Position numbers and translations under genes: made by a program
In this document: positions 52,201 to 58,596 of the stretch, piece after piece
Layout of the letters: every line of letters starts with the position of its first letter
Position numbering within the stretch: the first letter of the stretch is position 1
Assembly (NCBI RefSeq): GCF_964340395.1
Contig: NC_135556.1
Coordinates: forward strand, 13,235,910-13,299,909
Direction: 5' to 3'
Source of the DNA: Glandiceps talaboti
Lineage: Eukaryota > Hemichordata > Enteropneusta > Spengelidae
DNA: 64,000 nt
The notes under the pieces: generated by a model
The model's input: only the letters and a program-made list of their open reading frames with translations
The model's database searches: none
Told to the model about the DNA's origin: nothing

Positions 52201-55200
52201 AACGTGTATAAGCATGTTTTAAGTGTCAAAATTAATATGGTTTAAAACATGTTTAAAAGTAGTTTCAAATGAGTTGACTAAGGACTTCTGACATGTTTAA
52301 AACACGAATGAAACACTCAAAACTGATCAGACTTGTTTTGAACTATTATAGAACACTTTTTAAACTAGTGGATTTTTGGTAAGGAATTCCCCTTTTGCAG
52401 TGTGCCAATGACACCTGTCAGAAGTCTGCTTATAGTCTTTCAGCAGTCTGTCACAATGCTGTCAGAAGGCTGTTGTTAGTCTGTCAGGTCTGTTAGTGGT
52501 CTTTCAGATGTCTGAGGATAGTCTTACATAAGTCTGTTATAAAGCAGTTGAATGTCTGTCAGGTATTTACCTGAGCTGTTGAGAGTTGTTCTCTGCAGCT
52601 CAAATCTAATTAAGTATGCACAAAAATCAGCCTTCCGGCAGCTAACTGTCAGAAGTCTTTTTGAGAGCTGCTGCAGCTCAAAAACAGCTGTCTCATTTCG
52701 GTAAGGGTAGTCTCTGCATGGTTGAGTGTTTACTTGATGTAATAATCTCCCAGAAGATAAGAGAATTAAAGCAAACGGTTTGTGTAACTGATCCCTTGGT
52801 AATTATAAGATTTTGGGTGTTTTAATTTAGATATAAAAAGAATGGACAAGATGTCATTACTTACTCAATAAAGAATGAATTATATACAGCTGGAAGAGAG
52901 AAAACTAGTCATGGTAGGGAAAAAAAGAAAAAAGTGTTATATCAACCCAAAAATCAATCGGTCAATAAGGATTTTTATGTCTCATTACAGATCTCACAAG
53001 ATATGCAAATATGCCTAGTAACAATGGTTGTCAAATGTGATCAAGGTCAAGCTTTCACCATGGCCATATGCGATGATGTTGAGAACAATAGTGTTGCTAA
53101 GCGTTTGACACTTTCACCTTGACCACCCTCATGTGGTTGCTATGGATGCAATGGCTCATGCAGGATCTCATGAGGTCGCCGTGAGACGAAAAACAGCTAA
53201 TTGATCAATATCACACACAAAATAAGTTGTATTTCACCACAAAAATTAATCAATTGATCGATCGATCAATCAATCGATCAATCAATTACATGCTCAATTA
53301 CAAATAATATGTATTTCAATCTTTTGAATCTTTTTTGTAGTAAGAAAATTATATGATGATGTACAGCGAGCCATACCTTCTTACGGGGAAGGTAGCGATG
53401 ATGATGATGATGATGATGAATGCATGCCTGAAATCACTATGGGAGTGAGTCAACAGCAAACAGATAAAACGGAAGCACTTCCTGTCCTTTATGGTTTTCC
53501 TACACAACCAACAACGCCATCAATGGGTAGGCATCCGTTGGACGAAAACTTAGAACAGTGTAAGCCTAAACTTCCACCTAAAAATGCAGCTGTCCGTTCA
53601 AAAGTGACAAGAAAAGATGACAATCCAACGTCTTTCTCGTTGATAAATGAGACGAGAGGTACTGAGGAGGATTACTACTTAATGCCAGTGGAGGAGGTAG
53701 GTGGTGTTAAACAGAAACCACACCGAAACTGGCTTAGTGAGGACAGCACTGAATTCGACAGACTGGGAGATCCTCAGAGTTCCATAACTTCTAGTTCTAC
53801 TGCTTTTGGTCTGCCATGTGGACTTGATGGCCCACCACCTGAGAGACGCCACACGTATGATTCATTACCACAATCACCGCCAAAGGTTCCTGAAAGATCA
53901 CGCAAGCCTCACTATGGATATGGTGGATCCATTGACTCTAATGACTACCTCCCTGATGACATGCCATTTCAAAAACTTGCCAGAAGATACAAACAACATG
54001 TGGTGAATCGGTCTAATGACAAAATTGTGGTTTCAGGTGAGTTTCTTACTCTATCCTGAGATTGCAGTAGACTGTGTACCCTCGCCTTTTGGTTGTCATT
54101 ATCAAAAGTTTGGTAAAGAGTCAACCCTTGTGCAGGCACTAAATTGTGATATTGCCCTCGCTGGCAGGTGTTATTATTTAAATGAAAAAAAATAAGACTG
54201 ATGTGATAATTACACTTGCAACCTTTCAATTTGCAAATTCACAATTAAACAGCTGTGAAAAAAACACAAAGAATTTTTCCTGTAGGTACTTATCAACACC
54301 ATTCATTTTTTCAACAACACATTTTTATAAAGCCTTTTTCCTCACTGTGCTCAAAGCGTCCTGCAATTAGATATTACCCAGGGCACAGACATCTGAGATC
54401 GTGAATGATGATTCAATGGCACATAATTGCCCTTTATAATTTCATGAATGATGTAGGTAGTATATAACCATCAGGTGTACAATTACTACACATGAAAGTA
54501 GATTATCGATAAAGTCATAATATTCTTCATCTTGTGTTTAACAGATAATGAACACATGAAGTTGACAGCAAAGCCATATCTACCACGTGCAGGTATGTCA
54601 GCAAACCAGTTTCCATTTGAGATTTCAGACTGAAGTTTTATTGTATGATGTACGACATGTTGAGGAATATATAACACTGCCATACTGTGCTCTGTAAAGC
54701 ATGCTACAATTATTACTCCCGGCATTGACCTCATAATGACCTGTGACACTTTCTCAACTAGGGGAGCATATGGTCTGTAGTGTCCTTCATATAGCAAGCT
54801 GTATCCTACCAGGTGCCAGATGCATATTATACAGCTGGGTTACGTGTAGCACAATGATTATTCAAATCTTGCAAATCAAATCTTGTTTTTCATTCAGAAG
54901 CAAATTGCAGCAGAAAGGCTCATCTCAAGATCGTGATAGTTTATTTTATGGTGAAATAGATTTATGACTGTGATTTTGTTATTTAACAATAGGGCAGAAG
55001 TTACTTTTCACATGTAAAGTTCATCATGAGTATGCGATTACTGTAAGGAACATCACATGGAGCAAGAGGGTATCTGGAGATAAACCTGAAGAGTTCAAGT
55101 TTCAAGGCTACCAGTGTGAACTGCCATTTATTACTAGAAGACACACTGGAGAATATGAGTGTTTTGTTCATGCCGTTCAAAGTAATGGTAATGATCTGAC

Positions 55201-58596: not shown

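Follow-up and report, generated by a model that had tools for sequence, protein, structure and literature searches.

A predicted single-pass death-domain protein with two immunoglobulin-like domains on its cytosolic side, located in a receptor-gene cluster of the acorn worm Glandiceps talaboti

A 64,000-nucleotide stretch of the Glandiceps talaboti genome (hereinafter referred to as the window; C9:13235910-13299909 in an assembly that comprises 47 contigs and 590 Mb) contains a gene, here termed gene C, that appears to encode a single-pass membrane signalling protein. Its likely layout, as predicted from the sequence and with the 5' exons being predictions, comprises a signal peptide, an ectodomain of about 40 residues rich in Ser/Thr, a transmembrane (TM) helix, a tail, two immunoglobulin-like (Ig) domains, and a death domain (DD). 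Our overall reading, to which we assign a probability of roughly 0.6, is that gene C derives from a local receptor cluster and acts by DD clustering, and that its paralogue, gene D, repeats the cytosolic half. The architecture can be held with considerable confidence, and the proposed mode of action is given slightly less than even odds. Gene C would represent a new architecture, a variant of the death receptors, that probably acts via DD clustering.

The full predicted frame consisted of 773 codons and a stop codon across 13 exons (Table 1; exon coordinates are window positions). Eleven of these exons (41394-58596) formed a stop-free frame and were in phase 1 at both ends, except for the end of the last exon. 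When the DD exon was scanned alone, it matched the Pfam family Death with 39.2 bits against a cut-off of 22.6 (7.9e-10). In the joined protein of 713 amino acids, Ig_3 was found in two stretches above the curated cut-off (5.4e-8); scanned singly, Ig1 and Ig2 gave 0.00022 and 0.0021, both below the cut-off. The original prediction, made for the interval 54545..58596, had placed the exons for Ig, linker, Ig, and DD correctly between 54545 and the stop codon at 58596, and the TM exon (41394-41513) and the tail exons up to 54036 fall outside that interval. When the four Ig domains encoded by genes C and D were combined into one profile, it matched solved Ig structures in the PDB, with Contactin-4 (4.3e-8) at the top among the best 60 of 313 matches. 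Ig1 and Ig2 of gene C matched each other (24% identity, 6e-6), and each was encoded by a 48-base exon followed by an exon of 240-246 bases; this mutual match and common two-exon build suggest that the pair arose through tandem duplication. The loss of the second Cys and of the Trp in Ig2, as noted originally, was found again, but the residue number given there (I591) was not, the Ile being residue 571 when numbering starts at the TM exon and residue 631 in the 773-residue model.

Table 1. Exons of gene C and related features; coordinates are window positions unless a contig prefix is given.
Feature	Position	Strand	Description and evidence
Gene C exon 1 (predicted)	34926..35045	+	ATG, signal-peptide-like N-terminus, N-glycosylation site at residue 28; phase-0 donor at 98th percentile of window GTs
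Gene C exon 2 (predicted)	40153..40213	+	Stalk rich in Ser, Thr, and Pro, starting in phase 0 and ending in phase 1; acceptor at 86th and donor at 95th percentile; codon usage 0.086
Gene C exon 3	41394..41513	+	TM helix and 11-residue stop-transfer; splice sites at 98.6 and 97.8 percentile
Gene C exon 4	42389..42463	+	Tail; splice score 11.8; codon usage 0.011
Gene C exon 5	43494..43544	+	Tail, KPLLEGEN motif common to gene D; splice score 6.6; codon usage 0.013
Gene C exon 6	47644..47769	+	Tail; splice score 9.1; codon usage 0.004
Gene C exon 7	53341..54036	+	Long Tyr/Pro-rich tail; also in NCBI model
Gene C exon 8	54545..54592	+	First strand of Ig1; also in NCBI model
Gene C exon 9	54993..55238	+	Ig-like domain 1, Cys pair and Trp retained; Pfam and gene D match
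Gene C exon 10	55591..55725	+	Inter-Ig linker; also in NCBI model
Gene C exon 11	56037..56084	+	First strand of Ig2; also in NCBI model
Gene C exon 12	57336..57575	+	Ig-like domain 2, second Cys and Trp gone; Pfam and gene D match
Gene C exon 13	58241..58596	+	DD and stop codon; Pfam Death 7.9e-10, own-genome relatives
First coding exon of NCBI model (MVVKCDQ...)	53024..53102	+	26 residues; donor -6.5, 34th percentile of GTs; codon score +7.9
Gene B DD exon	18133..18491	-	Homologous to gene C DD; phase-1 intron enters at same place
Gene D, paralogue of gene C	C9:13304319-13314797	+	DD exon 14.6 kb beyond window end

Exons were ranked by a purpose-made splice-site score applied to phase-1 exons. 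In the reference stretch 53301-58300, the score yielded six exons, which were the six known ones. Between 41301 and 53340 it yielded seven phase-1 exons, of which the four belonging to the original prediction scored 6.6-11.8 and the other three 4.8-5.7. Four exons with phase 1 at both ends reached at least 6.5 in this region; 100 dinucleotide-shuffled versions yielded 0.19 such exons on average and never more than 2. Spurious opposite-strand exons elsewhere in the window scored up to about 9, so the splice score by itself is no proof. In addition, a codon-use model trained on other exons, with exons 4 to 6 excluded from the training, rated the exons beginning at 42389, 43494, and 47644 as coding-like (values in Table 1).

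Gene D provides the best support for the architecture, and it is external to the window. A search of the species' own genome with the gene C DD returned, besides itself, gene B (33% identity, 3.2e-13), C9:13200548 on the minus strand (0.0048), C9:13314470 on the plus strand (0.0097), and C8:11958029 (0.53). The exons of gene D, all in phase 1, are in order one that is Cys-rich and includes a Thr-rich stalk, one for the TM, three small tail exons, and a 954-base tail exon; then come a 48-base exon, the Ig1 exon, a linker exon of 48 bases, a further 48-base exon, the Ig2 exon, and the DD exon. The series TM-tail-Ig-Ig-DD in eleven phase-1 exons was the same in both genes, which showed 30% identity from the TM exon to the stop codon. 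Seven of the 11 exon pairs beat shuffled sequences (no more than 15 of 1000 shuffles as good), namely TM (3), exon 5 (0), exon 8 (15), Ig1 (0), exon 11 (0), Ig2 (0), and DD (0). The match of exon 5 (KPLLxGEN) matters most, since each of the two genes has this exon between its TM and Ig parts, and the NCBI model of the locus described below lacks it. Ig1 and Ig2 of gene C were 33% (5.8e-14) and 37% (4.6e-10) identical to their counterparts in gene D. Further, among 5162 open reading frames (ORFs), a hidden Markov model (HMM) built solely from the gene C Ig domains found Ig1 and Ig2 of gene D (1.4e-10 and 4.5e-9), and an HMM built from the DDs of genes B and C found those of gene D (6.4e-9) and of another cluster member, gene E (1.5e-10).

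Gene C contained a single strong TM ahead of the Ig exons, and an 11-residue basic cytosolic flank follows this TM. No second hydrophobic stretch was detected past residue 90, where the mean hydropathy in 19-residue windows reached 0.69 at most. The Cys pair was kept in Ig1 of gene C and absent from its Ig2 and from both Ig domains of gene D (three of the four domains). One TM with a basic flank, the C-terminal DD, and the loss of the Cys pair favour a cytosolic position of the Ig pair and the DD. The original prediction, in which the protein spans the membrane and has its Ig pair and its DD in the cytosol, agrees with these features and with the same exon series in gene D, and the loss of selection for disulphides that it had postulated fits the absence of the Cys pair from three of the four domains. 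It is very improbable that the Ig domains are extracellular or that the locus is a decayed gene: Ig domains in general are mostly extracellular and Ig1 of gene C retains its Cys pair, but a TM with a basic cytosolic flank precedes the Ig exons, the DD is at the C-terminus, and the frame stays open for 773 codons over 13 exons.

A protein search using Ig-Ig-DD as the query returned a single protein (P0001), which was the NCBI model LOC144439212 of Glandiceps talaboti and was 100% identical. Its junctions from 53341 to 58596 (exons 7-13) matched the gene C model exactly, in independent agreement. Several observations weigh against the membrane-anchored architecture or its support from gene D. 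The NCBI model begins at 53024 and lacks the TM exon, the codon score of its first exon is positive (+7.9), and a CpG-rich stretch at 49001-50250 could act as a second promoter. The signal-peptide and TM exons of gene C were indistinguishable from introns by codon use (0.378 and 0.744). Among the exon pairs of genes C and D, exon 4 (463 of 1000 shuffles as good), exon 6 (926), exon 7 (451), and the linker exon 10 (429) were not significant. In addition, for the joined protein of gene D, Pfam gave neither an Ig nor a Death match with E values up to 1; among its parts, Ig2 alone matched Ig_3 (0.0054), and Ig1 and the DD gave no Ig or Death match.

These data raise the alternative that the Ig-Ig-DD protein is cytosolic, as in the NCBI model, with a promoter near 49-53 kb, the TM and the small exons being part of a different gene or isoform. 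Besides the start at 53024 without a TM, the promoter-like sequence in the CpG-rich stretch and the long intron 47770-53340 are in line with it. We regard it as unlikely, because the first donor of the NCBI model is poor (-6.5, 34th percentile), compared with 5.8 for the donor at 47769 (exon 6), and because in gene D a TM, a homologue of exon 5, and Ig-Ig-DD follow one another as in gene C, with identical phases. In addition, no protein containing the TM together with exons 4-6 was found in a non-exhaustive search that covered lengths of about 183-581 amino acids only. A soluble isoform of gene C is possible. The 49001-50250 stretch contains a CCAAT-like box and a ATGGCGGCC start and is followed by a lysine-rich ORF (51107-51355) with no Pfam match; it is perhaps a nested gene or a second promoter. 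The intron between exons 5 and 6 contains a long (AT)n microsatellite (43869-44288).

At the 5' end, exon 1 lies inside a CpG-rich region (34501-36500), where CpG counts rise to 34 per 500 bases, the mean being 6.6. The acceptor of exon 2 was middling, and in an alternative form a donor of exon 1 at 35067 would splice directly onto the TM exon; the predicted ectodomain is short in both forms. Upstream of the TM, exon scans, Pfam, and HMMs of the cysteine-rich domains (CRDs) of the cluster, which have limited sensitivity, revealed no convincing Cys-rich domain: TNFR_c6 had no Pfam match in the three forward frames of 24500-43601, and the CRD HMMs gave nothing with E < 0.2. A TNFR ectodomain in gene C was rejected as a candidate on the basis of these three approaches. 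The corresponding alternative, in which gene C is a plain TNF receptor with a normal ligand-binding CRD ectodomain in unrecognised exons, is accordingly improbable. It draws on the presence of TNFR genes in the same cluster (Pfam TNFR_c6 and HMM matches) and on the Cys-rich exon ahead of the Thr-rich stalk in gene D; moreover, the CRD HMMs also missed this exon of gene D and gave only E 2.2 for that of gene B, so that divergent CRDs could escape detection.

The original prediction had described a MALT1-like Ig pair. This part found no support: no MALT1 chain was listed when the Ig domains and the DDs were searched against PDB sequences, nor was one present among the best 60 of 313 matches of the four-Ig profile; the domain order is Ig-Ig-DD as opposed to DD-Ig-Ig; and the DD is kin to that of gene B (33%, 3.2e-13). 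No peptidase family was found by Pfam on the joined gene C protein. MALT1 ancestry of the Ig pair or of the DD was rejected for lack of a MALT1 chain among the PDB matches listed. Both MALT1 and the predicted gene C protein combine a DD with tandem cytosolic Ig domains free of disulphides (PMC5978004, PMC3179463), and the tandem Ig domains of MALT1 are described as forming dimers and tetramers without disulphide bridges (PMC3179463). An acorn worm paracaspase has also been reported (PMC5978004). Nevertheless, MALT1 is soluble, begins with its DD, and has a paracaspase domain, which is absent from gene C; no sequence match was listed, in a comparison that did not include the MALT1 of Glandiceps. 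An offshoot of a MALT1-type paracaspase, with its Ig pair and DD moved onto a membrane anchor, would account for the shared combination of a DD with two Ig domains lacking disulphides, but given the different domain order, the absence of MALT1 chains among the listed matches, a best solved DD match to UNC5H2 (0.036 to 0.97), and nearest DDs that belong to neighbouring genes, we consider it highly unlikely.

UNC5 netrin receptors consist of a TM, two cytosolic beta-sandwich domains (ZU5-UPA), and a DD, with their Ig domains outside. Gene C follows the same plan of a TM, two beta domains, and a DD, although the domains differ and its Ig domains are predicted to be inside. The UNC5H2 match was weak (0.22 with the gene C DD, 0.036 with a profile of the DDs of genes B and C), and Pfam detected no UNC5 families (ZU5, UPA, TSP1) on the joined gene C protein or in the forward frames of 24500-43601. 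The LAT/SIT/LAX transmembrane adaptors resemble gene C in having a tiny ectodomain, a TM, and a tail with Tyr and Pro motifs. We know of no Ig domain or DD in adaptors of this type. Pfam matches below threshold for the TM stretch numbered 22 and included SIT (0.1) and LAX (0.19); they cover the hydrophobic helix only. Death receptors of the TNF receptor superfamily share the TM and the C-terminal DD, the cluster holds TNFR genes, and the adjoining gene B pairs a related DD with a Cys-rich exon and a TM; gene C differs from them in having no CRD found and two Ig domains between the TM and the DD. The view, stated in the original prediction, that TNFRs have no Ig may need amendment, as gene C lies inside a cluster that holds TNFR genes. 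The p75NTR relative NRADD/NRH2/p45 is reported to have a TM, a truncated ectodomain without a ligand-binding domain, and a C-terminal DD (PMC4122344). With its predicted short ectodomain, gene C is likened to NRADD by layout. To our knowledge, cytosolic Ig domains are no part of NRADD.

Searches for protein relatives elsewhere returned the NCBI model alone at E up to 10 (3804 and 83 candidates) and none among a further 145; these searches require shared 5-residue words and a similar length, did not return gene D, and could let distant acorn-worm orthologues escape. The titles and abstracts listed in searches of the open-access literature described no membrane DD protein with cytosolic Ig domains, which does not imply absence from print. 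Amphioxus innate immunity is described as a case of domain shuffling, for example in TNFR-caspase fusions (PMC2575513), which makes a new combination in gene C believable and less astonishing.

In the proposed mode of action, partners or ligand-binding co-receptors would gather copies of gene C at the membrane. The Ig pair may serve as a protein-binding or oligomerising spacer, by analogy with the behaviour reported for the tandem Ig domains of MALT1 in solution (PMC3179463), and the clustered DDs would recruit adaptors with matching DDs. The tail may supply phosphotyrosine/SH2 and SH3 docking sites; Tyr and PxxPx[RK] motifs were present, as counts without a control. Two TRAF-type motifs ([PSAT]x[QE]E) in the tail, against about one expected from composition by our own estimate, were disregarded. 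Since gene C is almost without an ectodomain, its role could also be that of a co-receptor for, or a regulator of, larger relatives, in analogy to the role reported for NRADD/p45 towards p75NTR (PMC4122344).

More speculatively, acorn worms might possess a separate class of death receptors that unites an anchor, a phosphotyrosine tail, a copy-ordering Ig pair, and a DD in one chain, and in the tandem pair gene C, nearly devoid of an ectodomain, might tune gene D, which has a Cys-rich one. In vertebrates, the link from receptor to DD assembly is made by separate adaptors and scaffolds. If the reading of gene C is right, this link would be built into one polypeptide through cytosolic Ig domains, and the protein would be a further case of disulphide-free Ig folds working in the cytosol. 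It would also make it possible to test if an Ig pair next to a DD, having arisen independently of MALT1, is an oligomerising scaffold, and the tandem pair of genes C and D would allow comparison inside one genome.

Four genes of the cluster had a DD, namely E, B, C, and D. In the last three, a phase-1 intron right ahead of a Glu-Cys pair leads into the DD exon, which places their DDs in one family. Gene B (18133-24483, minus strand) comprised a Cys-rich exon, a Thr-rich stalk, a TM, and a DD that was unseen by Pfam and matches that of gene C; no Ig exon was found between its TM and DD. Gene E (C9:13200542-13205112, minus strand), a candidate third member of the group formed by C and D, had a DD 53% identical to that of gene D and an Ig-like exon that lacks the Cys pair, in the order Ig-tail-DD, which differs from that in genes C and D. 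Its Ig exon gave weak matches only (best Pfam 0.0011, HMM 0.17), and no TM was found between 13205112 and the DD.

Gene A (791-12246, plus strand) was TNFR-like, with TNFR_c6 exons at 791-985 and 3183-3332; its Cys-rich exon lies near 9380-9742 and its TM exon at 11441. Its Pfam TNFR_c6 matches were about 1e-6, one just over and one just under the cut-off, and no DD was seen in its tail. A minus-strand gene at C9:13213441 matched Pfam TNFR_c6 with 2e-11, and CRD pairs outside the HMM training set were found at C9:13223524 (minus strand, 2.1e-28) and C9:13198546 (plus strand, 5.4e-16). With CRD exons at these three positions, the cluster extends 40 kb or more beyond the upstream end of the window. 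The matches of the first CRD model to A, B, D, and F were self-including; leave-one-out CRD HMMs retrieved A at 5.8e-5, F at 2.4e-15, and G at 1.4e-13, and B only at E 2.2. The Cys-rich exon of gene D was unlisted by the A+B+F+G CRD HMM (E up to 20) and by four leave-one-out HMMs (E up to 100). The label CRD is therefore unproven for the Cys-rich exons of B and D, both of which the leave-one-out HMMs miss. In addition, a mobile-element-like run of ORFs, one scanned piece of which had no Pfam match, was located at 29855-31306 on the plus strand, and a tandem repeat at 10139-11181 on the same strand reads NIIDILANQQHCHM in frame.

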